From contig JAIVJJ010000246.1 in assembly GCA_020200095.1 (NCBI GenBank), positions 1 through 32,301 of the forward strand: DNA of 32,301 nt, in the 5' to 3' direction. Each line of letters begins with the position of its first letter. Positions within the stretch are counted from its first letter, which is position 1. Source of the stretch: Acidobacteriota bacterium. GTDB taxonomy: Bacteria; Acidobacteriota; Blastocatellia; Pyrinomonadales; Pyrinomonadaceae. Of this stretch, positions 20,586 to 32,301 are shown piece after piece. The position numbers were made by a program, and so were the translations under genes. The notes beneath the pieces were generated by a model. It had not been told where the DNA came from. It saw nothing but the letters and a program-made list of their open reading frames with translations, and did no database searches.

Positions 20586-21314
20586 GTGAATCTTCCAAAT
20601 TATTTGACATTAGCAAGAATTATCGTTATCCCGCTTTTAGTAGTCGTTTTACTGACACCTTTTGCGGAAGACTGGTTCGGCGTCAGCAGTTACGCGCTGG
20701 CGATTGCTATTTTTCTTGCTGCTTCCTTTACAGATATTTTAGACGGGCATCTTGCGCGTCGCCGAAAACAAGTTTCAAAATTTGGCGCGTTACTCGACCC
20801 TATTGCCGATAAATTACTCGTTTCAGCCGCGCTGATTGTTTTGGTCGAAAAACATCTCGCACCAGCTTGGGCAGTTGTAATAATTTTAGGCAGAGAATTT
20901 ATTGTAACTGGTCTGCGCTCAATCGCAGCAACCGAAGGCTTCGTTATTTCCGCACAATCACTCGGAAAAATAAAGATGTGGGCGCAATGCGTGGCAATTG
21001 TCGCTTTGCTTGTGGCAGGCGCTAACGGTAATCCGCCAGTTTCAAATTTTGGCTGGGTTTTACCGACTTTTCGCTTCTGGGAAGTCGCTGAAGTTCAAAC
21101 AGCTTTTGATCATTTGTTCAATTTTGCGCTCAATACCGATGACTGGCGCGTTTTCGGATACTTGGTCGGGCGCGGCGCATTGTGGATTTCGGTAATCACG
21201 GCTTGTTGGTCAATGTATGATTATTTTAAATACTTTCTGATTGAGAATAAAAAACGCCGAACCTTAAATGAAATTATGCGTACCGAACAAGACCCGGTAA
21301 CTTCAATAAAATAA
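20586..21314 (+). CDS. pgsA: CDP-diacylglycerol-glycerol-3-phosphate 3-phosphatidyltransferase
   Basis: Makes phosphatidylglycerol phosphate from CDP-diacylglycerol and glycerol-3-phosphate in the inner membrane. The start is GTG at 20586, giving NLPNYLTLARI, the typical N-terminus. The CDP-alcohol phosphotransferase motif D-G-x2-A-R-x8-G-x3-D-x3-D is intact: Asp53, Gly54, Ala57, Arg58, Gly67, Asp71, Asp75. There are several membrane helices. At 242 residues it is longer than the usual ~180-200, because of an extra loop at about 143-192 (GNPPVSNFGWVLPTF...TDDWRVFGY) before the last helix. The gene stands alone. The loop is the only oddity. Confidence 0.92.
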   Translation: MNLPNYLTLARIIVIPLLVVVLLTPFAEDWFGVSSYALAIAIFLAASFTDILDGHLARRRKQVSKFGALLDPIADKLLVSAALIVLVEKHLAPAWAVVIILGREFIVTGLRSIAATEGFVISAQSLGKIKMWAQCVAIVALLVAGANGNPPVSNFGWVLPTFRFWEVAEVQTAFDHLFNFALNTDDWRVFGYLVGRGALWISVITACWSMYDYFKYFLIENKKRRTLNEIMRTEQDPVTSIK

Positions 21315-21462
21315 AAATCAGAAACCAAGTATTCGGTTTTTCTTCAGCCAACAATTCAAAACCGTGATAAAACCTCCGACAGTTTATCGTTTCGATATAG
21401 ATTGAAATTATCAATCTCGTTGTTTGTCAGAGCAATTCATAGTTGTTAATTTCGCAATGGTT
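21315..21462. other. gap after pgsA with a weak hairpin
   Basis: No convincing gene. AAACC at about 21323-21327 and GGTTT about 8 nt later form a weak 5-bp stem followed by TTTC, a possible pgsA terminator. Nothing else is visible before the small leftward ORF. Confidence 0.35.
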
Positions 21463-21525
21463 TTATTGCAGTTCGACTTTACTAACAGTTTGAATTTCCA
21501 GCGCATTAAGTGAAATTAGCTGCAT
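21463..21525 (-). CDS. 20-residue leftward ORF with a strong ribosome binding site
   Basis: ATG at 21525, TAA at 21463-21465; the product is MQLISLNALEIQTVSKVELQ. AAGGAG sits exactly 8 nt upstream (21539-21534), as good as any Shine-Dalgarno in this window. No longer ORF uses this site. It is an isolated micro-ORF, in the gap between pgsA and tRNA-Thr and running against both. It could be a leader peptide, a precursor peptide, a small toxin, or the remnant start of a lost gene. I recognise no family. No maturation enzyme gene is adjacent. Confidence 0.4.
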   Translation of the reverse strand: MQLISLNALEIQTVSKVELQ

Positions 21526-21610
21526 TGCCTACTCTCCTTGACAATCAAAATATAACTTTTTGATTAAACAATGGTGACGATTATTTTTAGTGTCTAACGA
21601 ATAACTTTAC

Positions 21611-21633
21611 TATTTTGTAGCTTGCACAAAATA
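21611..21633. promoter_or_regulatory. inverted repeat upstream of tRNA-Thr and of the micro-ORF
   Basis: TATTTTGT (21611-21618) and ACAAAATA (21626-21633) form an 8-bp perfect inverted repeat with a 7-nt centre. It overlaps a candidate tRNA promoter (-35 TTGCAC 21622-21627, -10 TAGTAT 21645-21650, 17-nt spacer). It may be an operator or chance in AT-rich DNA. Confidence 0.3.
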
Positions 21634-21687
21634 AAATGATTTTGTAGTATTTTCGCTTGCGGTTGCATTTGATAAAAGCAACTAAAT

Positions 21688-21763
<76 letters not shown>

Positions 21764-21780
21764 ATACACATAAGACTTTA

Positions 21781-21804
21781 GGGCATCTTTTGAGATGCCC
21801 TTTT
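21781..21804 (+). terminator. Rho-independent terminator of tRNA-Thr
   Basis: GGGCATCT (21781-21788) and AGATGCCC (21793-21800) form an 8-bp stem with a TTTG loop, followed by TTTTCTTT. Confidence 0.9.
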
Positions 21805-21849
21805 CTTTGACTCACACCTTTACTCACACTTACAGATTACCTTTTCAAT

Positions 21850-22020
21850 TTAATACTCACTAGGAAGCAAAACAGTAGTAGAACTCCTATCTGCCTCTGT
21901 AATCACCCAGAGTTTCACATCTCTGGCTGTCCTGTAAGCCGATAGTATTCTAACGCGTTTTATTGATTTGATGCGGCGGATGAATTTTGAATGAACGCGA
22001 AAATAGCTAAAGTAAAAGCA
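21850..22020 (-). pseudogene. 3' fragment of an unrecognised small gene
   Basis: One minus-strand frame is open from about 22020 to TAA at 21850-21852. Its end is clearly protein-like: VKLWVITEADRSSTTVLLPS followed by EY and stop, preceded by a basic stretch (FIRRIKSIKRVRILSAYRTA). There is no ATG or GTG in frame and no ribosome binding site; the upstream end abuts the 5' remnant of a different gene at about 22009. It is read as the C-terminal part of a truncated gene. I do not recognise the family with certainty. Confidence 0.45.
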
Positions 22021-22110
22021 TTAACCCGAAAATGAAAAGTGAACGGTTGTGTTTGTAATTTGTCCACATAATCTTCTGCTCCTATATTTTATAGTAAGCG
22101 TTGAGCCGGA
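22007..22110 (-). pseudogene. 5' remnant of a third delta-60/FG-GAP-type gene
   Basis: An ATG at 22069, with AGGAG upstream, encodes MWTNYKHNRSLFIFGLMLLL and then TAG (22007-22009). This matches the signal peptide of the delta-60/FG-GAP protein starting at 26414 (MQTKYKLNHSLFIFGLMILF). DNA similarity continues upstream through the ribosome binding site to GTTGAGCCG(G/A)AAAC at about 22100-22113 and 26444-26458. Everything after the signal peptide is missing. A former third tandem copy, removed by deletion, is the simplest reading. Confidence 0.6.
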
Positions 22111-22155
22111 AACCGCGCGAATTTGTTTTATTCGTCAACAGTTTCCGGCTTTTTG
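22104..22155 (+). terminator. hairpin with T-tract, possible terminator
   Basis: AGCCGGAAAC (22104-22113) and GTTTCCGGCT (22141-22150) form a 10-bp perfect stem, with a smaller CGAAT/ATTCG stem inside the 27-nt loop and TTTTT after the second arm. The T-tract is on the plus strand, although the nearest gene end (22192) is on the minus strand; it may still act as a stop or processing signal for that transcript. Confidence 0.45.
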
Positions 22156-22191
22156 TTCAAACGAGCCGAACTTCATTTTCACAATTCTGTT

Positions 22192-24324
22192 TTACGGCAC
22201 GAAAGCGTTTGGAACGGGTATATCGGCTGCCGCGCCGAACTGGACGCCCGTAAAGCCGCTGGTTGATTGCTGTAAATACCACGTACCGTTTGACTGACGA
22301 AAGAAGGAAATGTCGGTTTTTCCGTCGCCGTCATAATCGGCTGGTGTCGGAATGTCAGTTCCCAAGCCAAAAGCTATTCCGGTAAAGCCCAGCGTACTTC
22401 TTTGCAGATACCAGACTCCGTTCGAGGGACGAAACACTGCCACGTCCGCCTTGCCGTCTCCGTCGTAGTCAGCGGGAACGGGTTTGTCTTCGATTGTGCC
22501 GAACGCAATGCCCGTAAATCCGAGTTGACTTCTTTGTAGATACCAGATGCCGTTCGACGGGCGAAAAACGGCGACATCCGCTTTGCCGTCGCCGTCGTAA
22601 TCCGCTGCGACCGGAATGTCGCCGCTCGTGCCGAAAGCGACTGCGCTGTTCTGATTATTCGTCAAGTTATACAGATACCAAACGCCGTTTGACGGACGAA
22701 ACACGGCGAGTTCGGCTTTGCCGTCGCCGTCGAAATCCGCCGGAACGGGAATATCGGTTGCCGCGCCGAAAGCAATGCCGGTAGAGCCTTGCGAGCTTCT
22801 TTGCAAATACCAGATTCCGTCTCGATAAACGGCGACATCGGTTTTGCCGTCGCCGTCGTAATCTGCCGGCACGAGTTTGTCGCTTGGAATACCGAACTGA
22901 AGTCCGGTAAAACCGCTTGTTGGCTGCTGCAAGTACCACGTTCCGTTTGATGGGCGAAAGACGGAAATATCGGCTTTACCATCGCCGTCAAAATCAAATC
23001 GCGTCCGGGGCGCAGTTGTAACCGCGTCGCCGAGATAGCGCACCAATCCGACATCAGTTGCTAAACTGTTAGGGGAGGCGAAACGTTTCACGCCACCGAC
23101 AGCAATAATTTTTCCATCAGTCTGCAGGGCAATCGAAGTAATATAGTTTTGAATACTTCCGATAGGGGTAATAATGACACCGTTTGTCCCGAAAGATGTG
23201 TCAATTGTCCCGTTCGAGTTGTAGCGGGAAATGGCGAAATTGCTGTTTCCCTGTCCAGCCGTTAAAATTTTACCGTTTTGCTGTATTGCTAAAGCATAGC
23301 CAATGAGTGGAAATTCGGTAATTCTGACGATACCGTTTGCGCCGAAAGTGTTGTCGAGCGTTCCATTTGTGTTATAACGCGCTATGAATGATATCCACGG
23401 CGAGCTTCTATAGCTATAGCCGTTAACGATTATTTTGCCGTCCGGCTGCAGAGCCATTCCGCGAACATAAGTAGATTGATTGTCAATATTCGTCTGAACA
23501 ATTCCGTTCGCGCCGAAACTGTTATCGAGCGTTCCGTTCGGGTTGTATCGCAGAACGACGGAATCTATAGGACTGGCGAAACGGAATCCGGCAACCAGCA
23601 GTTTACCGTCAGTCTGCACTAATATTTCTCTGACACGAAGTTCTCTATTTCCGATTGATGTTCGCGTTACCCCGCCTGTTCCAAAAGTGATGTCCAGAGT
23701 TCCGTTGGGATTGTAACGGACGACTGCGACTTCATAAAAACTTTGATAAATATAATTTTCACAGGCGACGACAAATTTCCCGTCGGGCTGTAAGACAATT
23801 CGTTGTTCCGACAAATATCCGCCGACAGATGTTGTGATAACTCCGTTTGTTCCAAAAGAAGCGTCCAGCGTGCCGTTAGCCGTGTATCGGTAAATAACCA
23901 GACTCGCCGTTTCGCTACTTAGAATATATCTATTTCCGGTTACGAGAAATTTGCCGTCCGGTAAAATCACAAAATCCGTAAAGGGTATATCATAGCCAGA
24001 AATAGAAGTTACAATTACCAAACCGTTTGTGCCGAATGAATTATCAACCGTCCCGTCGGCGTTATGCCGGACAAGAAATGACACGGGAGAATAAAAACCG
24101 TAACCGTCGTTAAAGCCGACCGTGACGATTTTTCCGTCCGGTTGAATTCTGACTCTGGTCGGGTAGTCTAGTCCCTCAGTAATAGGTGTTATAACCTTGC
24201 CGCCGCTGCCAAAGGTCGTGTCCAAATCGCCCGGCGCGGCGTAGAAAGTAGTCGAGAGAAAAAAGACAAGCAAGAGTGCCGCGGTCAGTGAACATAATTT
24301 TTTATAAGCATTTTTGAACAACAT
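22192..24324 (-). CDS. secreted delta-60 / FG-GAP repeat protein (copy 1)
   Basis: 710 residues, AGAAGGAG before the ATG, signal peptide 1-29. Residues about 32-430 hold seven delta-60 units (pattern GTLDxSFGxNGxV... with LQPDGKIVxxG). From about 440 there are six FG-GAP/VCBS-like units (DYDGDGKADVAVFRPSNGxWYLQ), each with a DxDxDG calcium-binding loop. Both repeat types are beta-propeller-like and occur in large surface proteins that bind ligands or other cells. Unit 2 is the short YRDGIWYLQ variant and unit 3 reads WYLYN, exactly as in copy 2 upstream (24342-26414), 17 bp away. This shows whole-gene duplication. A 66-nt identical tract is shared with copy 2. The ligand is unknown. Confidence 0.85.
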   Translation of the reverse strand: MLFKNAYKKLCSLTAALLLVFFLSTTFYAAPGDLDTTFGSGGKVITPITEGLDYPTRVRIQPDGKIVTVGFNDGYGFYSPVSFLVRHNADGTVDNSFGTNGLVIVTSISGYDIPFTDFVILPDGKFLVTGNRYILSSETASLVIYRYTANGTLDASFGTNGVITTSVGGYLSEQRIVLQPDGKFVVACENYIYQSFYEVAVVRYNPNGTLDITFGTGGVTRTSIGNRELRVREILVQTDGKLLVAGFRFASPIDSVVLRYNPNGTLDNSFGANGIVQTNIDNQSTYVRGMALQPDGKIIVNGYSYRSSPWISFIARYNTNGTLDNTFGANGIVRITEFPLIGYALAIQQNGKILTAGQGNSNFAISRYNSNGTIDTSFGTNGVIITPIGSIQNYITSIALQTDGKIIAVGGVKRFASPNSLATDVGLVRYLGDAVTTAPRTRFDFDGDGKADISVFRPSNGTWYLQQPTSGFTGLQFGIPSDKLVPADYDGDGKTDVAVYRDGIWYLQRSSQGSTGIAFGAATDIPVPADFDGDGKAELAVFRPSNGVWYLYNLTNNQNSAVAFGTSGDIPVAADYDGDGKADVAVFRPSNGIWYLQRSQLGFTGIAFGTIEDKPVPADYDGDGKADVAVFRPSNGVWYLQRSTLGFTGIAFGLGTDIPTPADYDGDGKTDISFFRQSNGTWYLQQSTSGFTGVQFGAAADIPVPNAFVP
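22807..22872. repeat. 66-bp tract identical to 24945-25010
   Basis: It covers the junction of FG-GAP unit 2 (the YRDGIWYLQ variant) in copy 1 and is identical, base for base, to the same unit of copy 2. A second 39-bp identity lies at 24200-24238 and 26278-26316, over the mature N-terminus. Confidence 0.85.
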
Positions 24325-24341: not shown

Positions 24342-26414
24342 TTACGGCAAATATGCCGCCGGTATCGGTTTGTCATTTACATTGCCAAAAGCAATGCCAG
24401 TAAAGCCTTGTGTGCTTCTTTGCAAATACCAGGTTCCTTCTCTGAATACAGCAATATCTGCTTTGTTGTCTCCATCATAATCAGCTGGAACTGGTTCGTC
24501 TGTTCCTAATCCGAACTGAACGCCAGTAAAGCCTGCCGTTGATTGCAGCAGATACCAGGTTCCGTTTGATGGTCGAAACACAGCTATATCGGTTTTTGCA
24601 TCTCCGTCATAATCTGCCGAAACTGGTTTATCGGTTGATTCTCCGAAACTCATGCCAGTAAATCCATCTCTGCTTTTTTGGATATACCAAGTTCCGTTTC
24701 TGAAAACAGCAACATCGGCTTTAGCATCAGCGTCATAATCGGCAACAACCGGAACATCTCCCGTTTGTCCGAACTGCACAGCAGAGAATTGATTGCTAAC
24801 TAAATTGTAGATATACCAAACTCCATTCGAAGGTCGAAAGACAGCTATTTCTGAATTACCATCTCCGTCATAATCAGCAGGAACAGGAATGTCGGTTGCC
24901 GCGCCGAAAGGGACGCCGGTAAAGCCTTGCAAGCTTCGTTGCAGATACCAGATTCCGTCTCGATAAACGGCGACATCGGTTTTGCCGTCGCCGTCGTAAT
25001 CTGCCGGCACAATTTTATCGCCCGCCTGACCGAATTGAATGCCTGTGAAACCGGCTTGCGATTGCTGCAAATACCACACGCCGTTTGACGGACGGAAAAC
25101 TGAAACGTCAGCTTTTCCGTCGCCGTCAAAATCAAAGAGTTTTCGATTTGTAACGGGGGAATCTCCAATGTATCGGGCTATCGCAAAATAATACTCATCA
25201 AAGTCAAAACCCCAACCACCGGCGGCAACAATTTTGCCGTCGGGCTGAATGGCAAGACCAAAAGCCGCGCCGTAATAGTCATCGCGTCTGCCAAAATCAG
25301 TGGTTACTTTGCCGCCAGTGCCGAATGAAGTGTCGAGCGAACCATTTGGATTGTATCTAACAAGGGCGAAGTTATCGCCGCTGCTGCCACCAGCGATAAT
25401 TTTTCCGTTTGATTGAATCGCGAGGGAATAAGCGCTAGCCTTTTCTCCGAAAGACGTAATGACAATGCCGTTCCCGCCAAATGAAGTGTCAAGCGAACCG
25501 TTCGAGTTATATCGAGCAACTGCAAAACTACTATTAGCCTGGCTGACGGCAACAATCTTGCCGTCAGATTGAAGGGTAACTTCTTTGTAGTTGTCGGCTT
25601 CACTAGTAATCACAATGCCGTCGCTATCGAATGAAGAGTCGAGCGAGCCGTCCGCATGAAACCTGACTAAAGCGGAATTACCGATCCTGCCAGCGGCTAT
25701 GATTTTGCCGTCCGTTTGGATAACCACCGCGCTTGCTGCGGAATTAACTCCTAAAACAAGACGACCGTCATTGTCGAACGAAGAGTCAAGCGAGCCGCTT
25801 GAATTAAGCCGGGCAAGAGCTAAACGAGTGCCTGCCGAACTGACTGTCAAGCCGGCGAGAACAATTTTACTGTCCGGTTGAACTGCAACATCATGAGCCC
25901 AGTCAGTATTGTTGCCGAAATCAATAACCGCTTTACCGTCCCCGTCAAACGAAGTGTCTAACGCGCCCGTAACCGTGTATCGAACGACGGTAAAATCACA
26001 ACCACCCGAAGCGCCGCACGCGGCTCCAGCGACCACAATGCGCCCGTCCGTTTGAATGGCTAGGCTGCTGGCGTTCGTTTGGTGTGCAACAGAGGTTGTA
26101 ACTCCGCCGCCGGTGCCGAACGAAGCGTCAAGTGAGCCGTCAGCGTTGTATCGGGCAACAGCGATTTGTGGACCCGGTGCAAGCAGCGATGCAACACCGG
26201 CGACAACAATTTTTCCGTCAGCTTGAACGGCAACATCCTCACCGCCACTAAACTGACTAAAAAAAGTCGTAACCTTACCGCCGCTGCCAAAGGTCGTGTC
26301 CAAATCGCCCGGCGCGACCGATTGAGCTTGAACGAGCGGGAATGCCGCGCTGAAAAATAAAATCATTAGTCCGAAAATGAAAAGTGAATGATTGAGTTTA
26401 TACTTGGTTTGCAT
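24342..26414 (-). CDS. secreted delta-60 / FG-GAP repeat protein (copy 2)
   Basis: 690 residues, AGGAG 8 nt before the ATG, signal peptide 1-31 (ending VQAQ). Same plan as copy 1: seven delta-60 units (about 33-410) and six FG-GAP units (about 430-690). Some calcium loops are changed (DYDADAKAD in unit 4, DYDGDAKTD in unit 5, DYDGDNKAD in unit 6). DNA composition varies inside the gene: units 3-6 (24360-24880) are AT-richer, whereas units 1-2 (24890-25140) are GC-richer and nearly identical to copy 1. It is probably the first gene of a two-gene transcript. The ligand is unknown. Confidence 0.85.
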   Translation of the reverse strand: MQTKYKLNHSLFIFGLMILFFSAAFPLVQAQSVAPGDLDTTFGSGGKVTTFFSQFSGGEDVAVQADGKIVVAGVASLLAPGPQIAVARYNADGSLDASFGTGGGVTTSVAHQTNASSLAIQTDGRIVVAGAACGASGGCDFTVVRYTVTGALDTSFDGDGKAVIDFGNNTDWAHDVAVQPDSKIVLAGLTVSSAGTRLALARLNSSGSLDSSFDNDGRLVLGVNSAASAVVIQTDGKIIAAGRIGNSALVRFHADGSLDSSFDSDGIVITSEADNYKEVTLQSDGKIVAVSQANSSFAVARYNSNGSLDTSFGGNGIVITSFGEKASAYSLAIQSNGKIIAGGSSGDNFALVRYNPNGSLDTSFGTGGKVTTDFGRRDDYYGAAFGLAIQPDGKIVAAGGWGFDFDEYYFAIARYIGDSPVTNRKLFDFDGDGKADVSVFRPSNGVWYLQQSQAGFTGIQFGQAGDKIVPADYDGDGKTDVAVYRDGIWYLQRSLQGFTGVPFGAATDIPVPADYDGDGNSEIAVFRPSNGVWYIYNLVSNQFSAVQFGQTGDVPVVADYDADAKADVAVFRNGTWYIQKSRDGFTGMSFGESTDKPVSADYDGDAKTDIAVFRPSNGTWYLLQSTAGFTGVQFGLGTDEPVPADYDGDNKADIAVFREGTWYLQRSTQGFTGIAFGNVNDKPIPAAYLP

Positions 26415-27080: not shown

Positions 27081-27277
27081 CTTTTTTTCCTCATTTATTT
27101 AGTGTTAATTTCAGCCCGCTTTTTTCAACGGACATGGAGCGTCAAATCTTTTATCGCAAAAGTCTTTCGTTTTCTGCGGTTCTATACTAAAATGTCTCTG
27201 ACTTTGCATCCTTGAGACAGGTCCAGTGTTTTCCTGATTTTCCGCTCCGCAACCAATTTAATCGGAGAGGTGCGGAA

Positions 27278-29296
27278 GTGTCTTTGGATTTAGATTTAAT
27301 TTATTCTGACTTTAACTTTACGATGGTTAAACCCTGCCATTACAAGATTTACGAGTTTGAAAAATTTCGGCTCGATACCGTTCATCTGATGCTTTACTGC
27401 GGCTCGGAAGAGATTCCGCTTGCGCCGAAAGCGGTTGAAACACTTCTTGTATTGGTCGAAAGACGCGGCGAGATCTTGAGTAAAGACGAGCTGATGGAAA
27501 CCATCTGGACGGATTCGATAGTCGAAGAATCGAATCTCGCAAAATACCTTCACGTCCTGCGAAACACTCTCGGGAACAGCCAAAACGGTAAGCCTTTTAT
27601 CGAAACTTTTCGGCGCAGAGGATACAGGTTTAACGGCGACGTCCGGCTGGTGCCGGCCAGAAATGGGGAAAACGGAACTGCAGATTCTCTTTCGGTTATA
27701 AAACCTGCCGAATCGCTGCATTTAGCCGCCGATGTGTCCCGTTCTTTTCCCGACCGTCCAGAGATCGCAAGCCCGCCACTCCAAAATGGTCGAATGGAAA
27801 TTCCGTCCGGCTCGCAACGATGGAGTTGGTCTCCAGAGGGATCGTGGTTCGGTGGCGCGGGTGTGATAGCTGCGGTCGCTGTTCTTGCATTTACCTACTC
27901 GTATTTCATGGGCCATCGTCAGATCGATTCGATCGCCGTGATGCCTTTTGTCAACGAAAGCGGAGATGCCGAACTCGAATATCTTTCCGATGGAATGACA
28001 GAAACGCTCATCGAGAGCCTGTCGAAAATACCAAGCCTTGGGGTGCAGGCCAGATCCTCGATATTTCGTTACAAAGGAAAGGACACTGATGCACGGACGG
28101 TCGCGTCGGAGTTGGGTGTTCAGGCAGTTCTATATGGGCGGGTAGCCCAACGCGGGGATGATCTTAGGTTTAGCGCAGAGCTGGTCGACGGTAAAACAGG
28201 AAATCGTTTGTGGGCACAAACATACAATAGAAGAACGTCTAACCTGATCGCCCTCCAGGGAGATGTCACCCGCGACCTGGTTAGCAAACTTAGCATTAAA
28301 CTATCGGGCTCCACTGAGCAGAAATTGGTTAAAAACTATACGGAAAACGCCGAAGCATATCGGCTTTTTATAAAGGGACGATTCTCAATTCGCAAGCTGA
28401 CCCAGCCGGAGATAGAAGCTGGCATATCGTATATGGAGCGGGCGATAGATATAGATTCGTCATATGCGCTCGCTTACGCCGGGATCTCGGAGGGGTACCG
28501 CGCCCTCGCAATAGCAGGTGAAATGCCTCCCGGAGAAGTCCTGCCAAAGGCAAAGGCAGCGGCTCAAAAGGCCGTCGTGATCGACGATATGCTCGCTGAA
28601 GGCCACAGCGCTTTGGGCTTTACTATTTTCTTCCAAGAATGGAACTGGCCCGAGGCTGAAAAACATCTTTTGCGCGCACTGGAGCTCGATCCGAACAATT
28701 CCACGGCCCACTTTTCCTACGGCCATTTCCTTGGCAATATGGGCCGCCGCGAGGAAGCACTTGCGGAATTTGATCGCGCCAGAGAACTTGAACCGTACGA
28801 TCCCTACATCAATGCGTTCGGGGCAACCTTGCGTCTAAATACCGGGCAGCCGGAGGAGGCAGTGAATAGAATAAGGGCCACCATCGACCTTGATCCGAAT
28901 TTTTACTTTTCGCATATGATCGCGGGCGGCATCTATAGGGTTGGGAAAATGAATGATGAATCGCTCGCCGAATTCCGATTGGCAAAATCACTTTCACCCG
29001 ATCAAACCTGGTCGGACGTCGGGCTGATTGGCACGCTAATACAGATAGGAAAGGCCGACGAAGCGCGTGCGATTCTTAAGCAAATGCTCGACCGTTCAAA
29101 AACGCGATTCGTTCCGCCTTTTAACATCGCGCTCGTTTACGCCCAACTGGGCGAGCCGGATAAGGCGTTAGAATGGCTTGAAAGAAGTTATCAACAGCGT
29201 GACCCAAGAATGACTTTCCTGAAGGTGGAACCGAGATTAAAGAACCTTCGCGATGATCCGCGCTTTCAGGATCTTATGCAACGCGTTGGGTTCTAG
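27278..29296 (+). CDS. membrane-anchored winged-helix regulator with TolB-like and TPR domains
   Basis: I choose the GTG at 27278, because GGAGAGG lies 7 nt upstream; the ATG at 27323 has no Shine-Dalgarno and the frame is open from 27212. The 672-residue product has an OmpR/CadC-type winged helix (about 23-122; LAPKAVETLLVLVERRGEILSKDEL, NLAKYLHVLRNTLG, FRRRGYRF) and a linker. One membrane helix follows (190-212), then a TolB-like/adenylate-cyclase-associated domain (about 216-344; IAVMPFVNESGD, LSDGMTETLIESLS, RVAQRGDDLRFSAELVDG). At least six TPRs lie at 358-668. This CadC-like layout senses periplasmic signals and acts on DNA directly. It stands 70 bp before the TonB receptor gene and probably controls it. 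Composition is GC-richer than on the left. Confidence 0.85.
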   Translation: MSLDLDLIYSDFNFTMVKPCHYKIYEFEKFRLDTVHLMLYCGSEEIPLAPKAVETLLVLVERRGEILSKDELMETIWTDSIVEESNLAKYLHVLRNTLGNSQNGKPFIETFRRRGYRFNGDVRLVPARNGENGTADSLSVIKPAESLHLAADVSRSFPDRPEIASPPLQNGRMEIPSGSQRWSWSPEGSWFGGAGVIAAVAVLAFTYSYFMGHRQIDSIAVMPFVNESGDAELEYLSDGMTETLIESLSKIPSLGVQARSSIFRYKGKDTDARTVASELGVQAVLYGRVAQRGDDLRFSAELVDGKTGNRLWAQTYNRRTSNLIALQGDVTRDLVSKLSIKLSGSTEQKLVKNYTENAEAYRLFIKGRFSIRKLTQPEIEAGISYMERAIDIDSSYALAYAGISEGYRALAIAGEMPPGEVLPKAKAAAQKAVVIDDMLAEGHSALGFTIFFQEWNWPEAEKHLLRALELDPNNSTAHFSYGHFLGNMGRREEALAEFDRARELEPYDPYINAFGATLRLNTGQPEEAVNRIRATIDLDPNFYFSHMIAGGIYRVGKMNDESLAEFRLAKSLSPDQTWSDVGLIGTLIQIGKADEARAILKQMLDRSKTRFVPPFNIALVYAQLGEPDKALEWLERSYQQRDPRMTFLKVEPRLKNLRDDPRFQDLMQRVGF

Positions 29297-29353
29297 CTGA
29301 AGTCATTTGTACATCGCCCGGGTTTCTAATTATGTGACCTTCTTGAAAGTTAC

Positions 29354-29359
29354 GGAGGA
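29354..29359 (+). promoter_or_regulatory. ribosome binding site of the TonB receptor gene
   Basis: GGAGGA, 7 nt before the ATG at 29367. It fixes the start of a gene with no stop inside the window. Confidence 0.75.
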
Positions 29360-29366
29360 ACGTACT

Positions 29367-32301
29367 ATGAGAATTTCCCTATGTTTCCCGATGACCACCT
29401 TTTTGATCGTTCTTGCCTGCTTTGGGTCTCTTTTTTCCCAATCTGCAGGGGGCAATATTTCCGGTATCCTGGCAGATCAGAACAATGCCGTCATTTCCGG
29501 TGCGACAGTTACCGCTAAGAATACCGCAACCGGGTTTACCAGATCATCGATCACGAATTCGGAAGGGCGTTACAGTTTTTCGGACGTACCCATTGGGGCC
29601 TATGAATTAACAATCGACGCACCGAACTTCGCCAAGTACGTTCGAACGGGCGTCAATCTGCTGGTAAATCAAAATGCCATCGTCAGCCCGACCCTGACGC
29701 CAGGAAGCGTGAACGAAACCGTCACCGTCAACTCGGACGCCTCGCTACTGAACACAACCACGTCGGAAGTTGCAACTCGGTTCGACGAGCGGCGATTGTC
29801 GGAGCTGCCCATCGCGCCTAACCGAAACGTCTTGAACATCCTGCTGTCTGTCCCGGGCGTCGCGCAGCTCGGTGGCGGTCAGTCGAGTTATGCAACCGGG
29901 ATCAGTTTTTCTGCGAATGGCGGACGGATCCGTTCGAACAACTTCATGATCGACGGCCAGGATGTGAACGACACGGTTTTCACAGGCACTGGTTTCGCGC
30001 TTAATAATCCAGATGCGATCCAGGAGGTTCGAATTGTTACTAATCAATTCAAGGCCGAATACGGACGCAATTCCGGTTCGGTGGTGAATTTTGTGGGCAA
30101 ATCCGGAACAAACGATTACCACGGTACGCTGTTCTGGTTTCACAATAACGAATATTTGAATGCGTGCAGCAACCTGGATAAGGTTGCAAGCTTTGCTCCG
30201 ACAGGCTTCTGTAACGGTAATGCCGTGATGGACGAACGAAAGCGGGCACCGAAGCGGCGTGAGAATCAGTTCGGTCTAACGTTCGGCGGTCCGTTCACGT
30301 TTCCCTGGTTCGGGGACGGCGACGACCCCAAGATTTGGAAAGGTACCGACAAAACATTTATTTTTGGTGATTATCAGCGATGGTCGGATAGGTCGCAGCG
30401 TTCAGGCACTACACTGATCGGAGCACCAACGGCGAATGGACGGGCAGTGCTCCAATCAATAGCTGCCGATCGCCCGCAGGTCCAGGCGCTTCTGGATTTT
30501 GTCCCCGCAGGGATCCCAAATGGCAGATCTGCGACTTTTACGATTCCGGGACAGCCGCAGCGATCTGTCGAGCTCGGCAATCTTACCGGATCATCGCCGT
30601 TCGTATTTGATGACCGACAAGGCTCGGTGCGGGTCAATCACCGTTTTAACGACAAGAATCTCATTTACGGCCGTTACCGGTTCGATTCGCAGCGAACCAC
30701 TGGAGCCGGTCAGGTAACCCCACCGGGTCACACAACGGTTAACTCGACCAGGTCAGCAGCCGCAACGATAGTCTTTAACAGCATCTTTACGAGTAAGTTG
30801 TCTAATGAGGCGCGTATCGCATGGTCTCGGTTCAGTTCGATGAACGATGCGGAGAGCCCATCGTCAAAGACGATTCCATCGATTGCTATCCCAGGGCTGC
30901 AGATTTTGAATATCAACGTGAACCGCACAGCTATAGGCTTACCTTCCTTTCTACCCGGCGCTAGAAGAATTCAGGCCTATCAGATCTCTGACGCAACCTC
31001 ATATTTCATCGGTAACCACAATATGAAGTTTGGCATTGAGTTGCGTCGGACCGATGCCAGGATCTCGGCATTTCAAAATTCAAGAGGACGACTGCAATAT
31101 AATTCGCCCCCTTCAGGCGACATATCGAATTTTGTCAACGATATTGCATCAGAGGCGAGCATTAACTTTCCGCTCGCCGGAGGCAGTGCGACAAGCTTTT
31201 ATCGATGGCATGAGCTTTATGCTTTCGCACAGGACGAGTGGAGGATCCGAAACGACTTTACTCTGACTTACGGAATTCGCTACGAGTATCCGGGCGACTC
31301 TTTCGGCTATTTAAGAGAAGTGAATGAACGGATCCTGGTGGCCAATGGTAACAATCCGGCATTCCGATCAACCCCGACGCCGAAAGCGGATACTAACAAT
31401 TTCATGCCGCGGATCGGATTCAACTGGAACCCTCGGACGAGCGGGAGAGGGCTTCTCGGCTTAGTTACAGGCGGCGACAAGCTCGTGGTCCGCGGCGGTT
31501 ATTCGCGAACATACGATGCGAATTTCGTTAATATAGACGCGAATATGTTTTCCTCGTTTCCGTTCGCATGGACCGAGAACGTATCACTAATCGGAGCCTT
31601 CGCGGCTATACGGAACGCAACCGCCCCAAATATAACTCAGCCGAACCGTGTGTCGAGGATCATCGTTTCGGAAGATCTTCGCGCTCCGGCTGCCGACCAA
31701 ATTTCTTTTGAGATTCAACGTGAGGTTGCCAAAGATGTGTTGATGCAGGTTGGGTACATCAGGACGCGCGGTACCGGACTTCTGCAGATCGTTGATGGAA
31801 ATCCATGTCGGCCAAGTTTTAACTGCCGCGGGGTCTTTGGAAACCGTGTCGACCTGAATCGGGAAGTGATCCAGTTATATACGAATGCGGCAAGCTCAAC
31901 CTATGACGCTCTGCAGGCAAGCTTGACCAAACGCCTGAGCAATAATTTCAGCGCGGGATTACATTACACGTGGAGCACCTTTATCGATGATGCCTCCGAC
32001 ATTTTCAGCCCTTCTGTATCAGAGAATTCTGTCGCACAGGATCCTTTCAATCGTCGTGCCGATCGTGCCCGCTCGAGCTACGACCGACCACATCGGCTGA
32101 CGGGTAATTTTGTCTACGAGTTTCCTTTCTATAGTCGGCAAAACGGGGTCAGCGGCCGTCTCCTCGGTGGCTGGCAGGTCAATTCATTCTTCACATTTCA
32201 GAGCGGTGCACCGTTCTCGGTTTCACTGGGTTCAGACCCTGCATGCGCCCTTTGCGGAGTTGCCGCTTCCGTCCGCCCAAATTTGAACACGAACCTGAAT
32301 C
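29367..32301 (+). CDS. TonB-dependent receptor with carboxypeptidase-regulatory-like domain, 3' end outside window
   Basis: The ATG at 29367 opens a frame without stop to the window end (978 codons). A signal peptide (about 1-26, FGSLFSQ) is followed by a carboxypeptidase-regulatory-like beta-sandwich (about 28-110; GNISGILADQNNAVISGATVTAKN, GRYSFSDVPIGAYEL). The plug domain is LPIAPNRNVLNILLSVPGVAQ and SNNFMIDGQDVNDT. A long outer-membrane barrel follows, with pieces such as NHNMKFGIELRRTDARIS, FAQDEWRIRNDFTLTYGIRYEYPG and FQSGAPFSVSLG. This OAR-like architecture is expanded in Acidobacteria and imports or binds large substrates, often glycans or peptides. The substrate is unknown. The upstream regulator may control it. 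GC content is clearly higher than in the left half. Confidence 0.92.
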   Translation, partial: MRISLCFPMTTFLIVLACFGSLFSQSAGGNISGILADQNNAVISGATVTAKNTATGFTRSSITNSEGRYSFSDVPIGAYELTIDAPNFAKYVRTGVNLLVNQNAIVSPTLTPGSVNETVTVNSDASLLNTTTSEVATRFDERRLSELPIAPNRNVLNILLSVPGVAQLGGGQSSYATGISFSANGGRIRSNNFMIDGQDVNDTVFTGTGFALNNPDAIQEVRIVTNQFKAEYGRNSGSVVNFVGKSGTNDYHGTLFWFHNNEYLNACSNLDKVASFAPTGFCNGNAVMDERKRAPKRRENQFGLTFGGPFTFPWFGDGDDPKIWKGTDKTFIFGDYQRWSDRSQRSGTTLIGAPTANGRAVLQSIAADRPQVQALLDFVPAGIPNGRSATFTIPGQPQRSVELGNLTGSSPFVFDDRQGSVRVNHRFNDKNLIYGRYRFDSQRTTGAGQVTPPGHTTVNSTRSAAATIVFNSIFTSKLSNEARIAWSRFSSMNDAESPSSKTIPSIAIPGLQILNINVNRTAIGLPSFLPGARRIQAYQISDATSYFIGNHNMKFGIELRRTDARISAFQNSRGRLQYNSPPSGDISNFVNDIASEASINFPLAGGSATSFYRWHELYAFAQDEWRIRNDFTLTYGIRYEYPGDSFGYLREVNERILVANGNNPAFRSTPTPKADTNNFMPRIGFNWNPRTSGRGLLGLVTGGDKLVVRGGYSRTYDANFVNIDANMFSSFPFAWTENVSLIGAFAAIRNATAPNITQPNRVSRIIVSEDLRAPAADQISFEIQREVAKDVLMQVGYIRTRGTGLLQIVDGNPCRPSFNCRGVFGNRVDLNREVIQLYTNAASSTYDALQASLTKRLSNNFSAGLHYTWSTFIDDASDIFSPSVSENSVAQDPFNRRADRARSSYDRPHRLTGNFVYEFPFYSRQNGVSGRLLGGWQVNSFFTFQSGAPFSVSLGSDPACALCGVAASVRPNLNTNLN

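Follow-up and report, generated by a model that had tools for sequence, protein, structure and literature searches.

A probable integrative-element scar at a tRNA-Thr gene, joined to an old pair of gene relics from an FG-GAP cluster

The window considered here, by which is meant the whole 32,301-nucleotide stretch of DNA that was analysed, carries a tRNA-Thr gene with anticodon TGT at 21688..21763 on the plus strand (ARAGORN; Rfam tRNA score 69.3 bits) and, beyond its 3′ end, three gene relics between positions 21850 and 22110; an earlier count of two in the first-pass annotation was real but incomplete. The tRNA gene is followed by a terminator-like hairpin on the same strand (21780..21801), within what would be the end of an integrative element, and by two copies of the direct repeat ACTCACAC (21810..21829, with 12-bp spacing), which are putative arm-type integrase sites. 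The hairpin is the sole site of its kind in 21300–22300 and carries little weight by itself, since shuffled sequences average 0.8; hairpins in the equivalent position can be made out by eye at other element ends. Relic C (21850..21953, minus strand), recognized from DNA matches, is the 3′ end of a small-protein gene, ~33 codons long. Relic B (21954..21994, plus strand), recognized from its match to another contig of this genome (C152), comprises the last 12 codons and the stop of a TPR-containing gene. Relic A (22007..22117, minus strand) preserves the leader of a delta-60/FG-GAP gene together with its start codon and 20 codons, the open reading frame being MWTNYKHNRSLFIFGLMLLL followed by a stop (22007–22069, minus strand). 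An inverted repeat read by eye, GCCGGAAAC..GTTTCCGGC (22106..22149), may belong to the leader of A or serve as a plus-strand terminator. Farther along stand two intact delta-60/FG-GAP genes on the minus strand (22192..24324, 710 aa, and 24342..26414, 690 aa, the latter being the gene whose start relic A matches) and, on the plus strand, a regulator gene with Trans_reg_C and TPR domains (27212..29296) that is of the same broad kind as the gene behind relic B.

The suggestion that a third FG-GAP gene survives here as a 5′ relic is well supported by the DNA itself. When the genome is searched against itself, 22117..22009 aligns over 109 bp with the start of the gene at 26414, at 75% and E 2.3e-14, and the matches of both A and C are far above chance. 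The beginnings of three intact genes, leaders included, can be aligned with relic A (one of them here and two in the sister genome G011), as can an equivalent relic in two sister genomes, G010 and G011. The shared 5′ leader and signal-peptide start of delta-60/FG-GAP genes are present, and with 20 codons left and no delta-60 or FG-GAP repeats the piece is a relic rather than a member gene. Several FG-GAP genes of the cluster share a common 5′ leader in which an inverted repeat precedes the start, a candidate regulatory element, and the leaders of the aligned genes contain sequence related to the inverted repeat at 22106–22149. Relic B, whose plus-strand reading over 21954–21992 ends in RFIDLMRRMNFE and a stop, is identical in 39 of 39 bases to C152:8329–8367 (E 5.1e-13, own-genome search), where the TPR-containing gene is complete and open over 925 codons (L012:5592–8369).

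Relic C, whose reading ends in VKLWVITEADRSSTTVLLPSEY and a stop at 21850, had been put down as the 3′ end of another gene, perhaps a conserved small protein of unknown type, and this is what it proves to be. Its DNA (21959..21850) matches four other contigs of the genome at 79–92% (E 1e-38 to 7e-34), and it corresponds to residues 126–160 of a 160-aa copy with 91% identity. There are five other copies of gene C in this genome, of which the one on contig C383 is complete at 160 aa; the protein consists of an N part (residues 1–70) and a C part, both of which occur apart from one another in relatives. The protein has no Pfam or NCBIfam match at E 0.01, nothing in PHROGs (best E 0.73) or PADLOC (best E 0.035), and no match among PDB sequences (best E 0.51), and the N part of G041, one of the relatives, likewise lacks a Pfam match. 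A model of the gene C protein predicted from a G010 relative has a mean pLDDT of 97.6, and a Foldseek search with it returned no match at E 0.001 or better.

In many of its copies gene C is directed toward the 3′ end of a tRNA gene. Within this genome the copy on C203 adjoins tRNA-Arg(TCG), that on C17 tRNA-Ala(GGC), and that on C266 a 45-bp 3′ half of tRNA-Thr(CGT), while a more distant copy on C453 lies 215 bp from tRNA-His. The copy on C383 adjoins a degenerate tRNA (L008:870–929, Rfam 29.5 bits against a gathering threshold of 29). That tRNA is without its 3′ part and stands beside a complete N–C gene, a scar that seemingly took the tRNA end too. A search with the N and C parts found a match in 22 of 119 genomes of the family, and of 40 such places 17, counting the window, have a convergent tRNA gene no more than 250 bp away, with 10 anticodons represented; these distances are measured from the end of the match and not always from the stop codon. 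The places are not independent, several coming from G010 and several from the present genome, and E-values are weak for the shortest matches. (The 40 places derive from 42 rows, two from G010:C26 having been merged and the second from G028:C154 dropped.) Three further places have a tRNA at 346 bp (on the same strand), 734 bp, and 1350 bp, and the remaining 20 have no tRNA found by ARAGORN on the 3′ side, although C383 and C266 among them carry tRNA pieces and some lie near contig ends. Forty-five tRNA genes in 4 Mb is a typical number, and at that density roughly 1 in 350 places would be expected as close as 250 bp. Short C tails of 25–37 codons stand beside tRNAs at G011:C81, G010:C62, and G010:C101.

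Around the best 80 C-domain loci collection-wide, by contrast, no tRNA occurs within 1 kb in either direction, though this set is not a clean control, because at least seven of its loci (from G010, G112 twice, G043, G023, G024, and G088) are also among the tRNA-less places of the 40, near relatives may be left out, and places with the N part only cannot appear. Set against 17 of 40, the 0 of 80 makes tRNA adjacency characteristic of a subset within this bacterial family and not of the C domain, and gene C as a general marker of tRNA ends is thereby ruled out.

Among 13 loci examined, four have elements whose far side repeats 42–47 bp of the tRNA end. Of the others, L261 carries ~30 bp where the contig begins, L267 has nothing beyond 18-mers from the 5′ part of the tRNA, and at L008 no tRNA was found; the remaining six, several of them short, are without a repeat. 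The four complete elements are situated at tRNA-Arg(TCG) in G041 (~11.4 kb) and tRNA-Val(CAC) in G028 (~11.4 kb), both with the N part at the tRNA end; at tRNA-Glu in G040 (~7.6 kb), with the C part at the tRNA end; and at tRNA-Thr(CGT) on contig C266 of the present genome (~13.4 kb), which unlike those in G041 and G028 has its integrase at the tRNA end. Each contains an integrase matching PF00589 (two were also scanned separately), and each shows one short direct repeat at both of its ends (TCACACC, CCCACC, GGACAC, and GTGTGCC, read by eye without statistics). The C266 element has no N or C match of its own, and a C relic is found immediately beyond its far repeat, as would fit the outward displacement of an older element; its cargo includes a SWIM-like gene (below the Pfam cut-off), HTH_17, a DNA methylase, Schlafen/AlbA_2, and ResIII. 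From these sequences gene C appears to be part of the tRNA end of integrative elements.

Two other contigs of the genome bear on the same tRNA. Contig C82 carries the 3′ half of tRNA-Thr(TGT) (54 of 54 bases), an integrase of 425 aa (PF00589), and at the integrase end a repeat that by eye is like ACTCACAC in the window; beyond the tRNA copy there is a second element end, with a repeat resembling that at the integrase end of C146. Contig C146 in turn has a 50-bp perfect copy of the tRNA-Thr(TGT) 3′ part near an integrase gene. These resemblances suggest that C82, C146, and the window may be parts of a tandem array at tRNA-Thr(TGT), with no contig joining the parts, and the integrases of C82 and C146 (L269) probably belong to successive elements of one array; their neighbours on C82 (L268) and C146 are presumably primase/helicase proteins. 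Beside the same tRNA-Thr(TGT) in other genomes of the genus, G014 has an integrase match with one stop and G012 has reading frames that we take to be integrase fragments, while the reading frames in the 6 kb after the tRNA in G010 include no integrase.

The window itself has no integrase among its open reading frames as read, a single copy of the tRNA-Thr end with no second, and neither the rest of C nor an N part; with these absent, its membership among the elements rests on gene C, the arm repeats, and position. As to position, the stop of relic C at 21850 and the tRNA-Thr end at 21763 place the relic 3′ of the tRNA gene, as at the element ends, and ~190 bp of element are left.

A search for the B–A block in nine genomes of the genus, the present one included, found 21954–22200 as one block in G010 at 90%, with a longer TPR relic of 46 codons in the same place as B and the 20-codon frame of A ending at the same stop. 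In G011 the leader follows FG-GAP coding sequence and the frame is ended after four codons by an insert (read by eye). This insert (L091:366–533), which stands directly after the fourth codon of relic A and has inverted-repeat ends beginning TTCTACTTTGTCAGATTAAAA, looks like a small non-coding mobile repeat. The relic A block has no match in the six other genomes of the genus, G012–G017, and the C–B join was not seen in any of the eight other genomes searched. With relics in both G010 and G011, the decay of A had already taken place in more than one lineage; and because neither of these two genomes holds the intact third FG-GAP gene that had been looked for at the syntenic place, and the other six have no match to A, its loss is not assignable to this genome. 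B and A thus appear from the comparison to be old neighbours, already joined in G010, and C|B to be the newer join. That breakpoint, at 21953|21954, is lineage-specific and forms the left edge of B. The neighbours of the cluster in G010 and G011 are, we presume, a peptidase and an aspartate kinase, and the genes that flank B–A in G010 stand on C152 in the present genome, where no FG-GAP gene occurs in the 16 kb listed; the position of these flanking genes marks a break of synteny at 21953|21954.

There is good reason to think, then, that an integrative element has left its scar here at tRNA-Thr(TGT) and that this scar is joined to an old pair of relics from the FG-GAP cluster; this is the reading that we hold to be likely. 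An element with a tyrosine integrase would have inserted into the 3′ end of tRNA-Thr, the presumed integration site, restoring the tRNA and bringing with it a terminator, arm-type repeats, and gene C, an insertion anatomy that is seen in the elements of relatives and that we infer here. The tRNA-distal part would then have been lost from this place, and an illegitimate rearrangement may have joined the broken C to B–A, uniting tRNA-Thr and the FG-GAP cluster in this lineage. If the element supplies the 3′ end of the tRNA and the terminator at 21780–21801, a later deletion or rearrangement could remove all but that end and leave the C tail standing, and the presence of the tRNA 3′ end and the terminator is probably what has kept the tRNA-proximal tail in place.

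The composition of the join does bear on a second explanation, that the contig is a chimera in which a left part up to 21953 (tRNA-Thr and the element end) and a right part (the FG-GAP genes) have been misjoined, the relics being real and their neighbourhood not. At the junction the GC content rises abruptly, from 43.0% to 50.1%, and identity to G010 is uneven: in 60-bp windows it is 87–95% over B–A, 58–83% over pgsA, and 55–93% over the peptidase on C152, and it falls to 63–77% in the coding FG-GAP part beside A and B. At 29300–32301 on the plus strand the window contains a decayed gene with ~1000-aa homologues, open in G011 and G016, that we assume to be TonB-type receptors. The last 1.4 kb of this gene are 97% identical to G010:C64, a value that, beside the 58–83% of pgsA, suggests that recent transfer or mixing may have taken place. 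The GC step and the uneven identity fit transfer or a chimeric contig as well as they fit rearrangement, and a chimera would also suit a draft genome of 464 contigs, in which the far right end of this contig is so close to G010 and the aspartate kinase–peptidase place on C152 is without the FG-GAP cluster. Against it, the C-to-B join has almost no shared bases and no repeat to mislead an assembler, a high GC content (50.4%) is also found in the FG-GAP cluster of G011, and truncations of C at various points next to tRNAs occur on other contigs and in other genomes. A misjoin keeps a real share of the probability and is the less likely account of the join.

The high identity of A and B to their non-coding counterparts in G010, relative to that of the adjacent coding sequence, could be taken to mean that relic A is alive, whether as a retained regulatory leader or as a gene for a 20-residue peptide, and the conservation of the frame and its stop in G010 points the same way. 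The first-pass annotation had proposed that a short signal-peptide frame kept as an independent gene in relatives would speak against a relic, and the relatives divide on the matter: G010 keeps the frame and G011 does not, its insert cutting the frame after four codons. The frame occurs in just two genomes, the high identity is explained by gene conversion or transfer, and a living A is improbable. The earlier model, in which two relics were directly fused by one deletion within the FG-GAP cluster, correctly read A and C and placed the edge of A near 22010 (it is at ~22009), but it retains next to no probability, being refuted by the match of relic B, a 39-bp third relic on the opposite strand that separates A from the edge of C at 21953, and by an A–B join common to G010 beside a C–B join absent from the eight other genomes.

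If the element scar is accepted, a C tail beside a tRNA in this bacterial family suggests a marker of a past element at that place, and in the present genome repeated, perhaps tandem, insertion at tRNA-Thr(TGT) is indicated. The complete related element at another tRNA, on C266, carries DNA methylase and ResIII genes. Gene C is further of note in that the small protein family to which it belongs, widespread and commonly given a restriction-subunit label, has no Pfam or NCBIfam match.

Several known systems may be set beside these pieces. Relic A has the leader and signal-peptide start of delta-60 repeat (TIGR02608)/FG-GAP proteins without any of their repeats. For the predicted C model, the best structural row is 2r41, a protein of unknown function (Z 5.2), and most of the best matches are chains of the RelE family (RelE/YoeB/HigB fold) with Z of 4.4 or less, where Z under 8 may reflect merely a common arrangement; a RelE-like gene C is accordingly a weak lead from a model and not an assignment to that family. 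Small plasmid-borne proteins are homologous to the C part, with 42–51% identity in the rows listed, and lie on plasmids, unlike gene C here. Relatives of C occur in 163 plasmid records; the label 'type I restriction endonuclease subunit M' appears on 24 of the 25 rows listed and, for a 160-aa protein with no Pfam or NCBIfam match, is probably a misnomer. It might be imagined, as a tentative and on balance doubtful extension, that there is a family of elements with one end module (N and/or C, a SWIM-like gene, and a helix-turn-helix gene), several integrases, and many tRNA targets, in which the weakly RelE-like C with its N partner would form a module for addiction or maintenance located at the tRNA end, and in which the tail and terminator left after each loss would constitute a fossil record in tRNA genes.

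Genomic islands that integrate at tRNA genes by means of tyrosine recombinases form a general class, and the elements described here share with them the tRNA 3′-end target, the far-side repeat, and an integrase at one end, as well as signs of tandem insertion and, in the C266 element, restriction and methylase cargo. Tandem cases of tRNA-integrating elements have been described (PMC2297512, PMC2717098, as judged from their titles and the openings of their abstracts), and the titles and abstract openings surveyed contain no description of the present element family. What sets the elements apart from the known islands is an end module in which gene C or N is accompanied by a SWIM-like gene and a helix-turn-helix gene, together with their use of 10 anticodons; the window differs further in that it retains the end alone.
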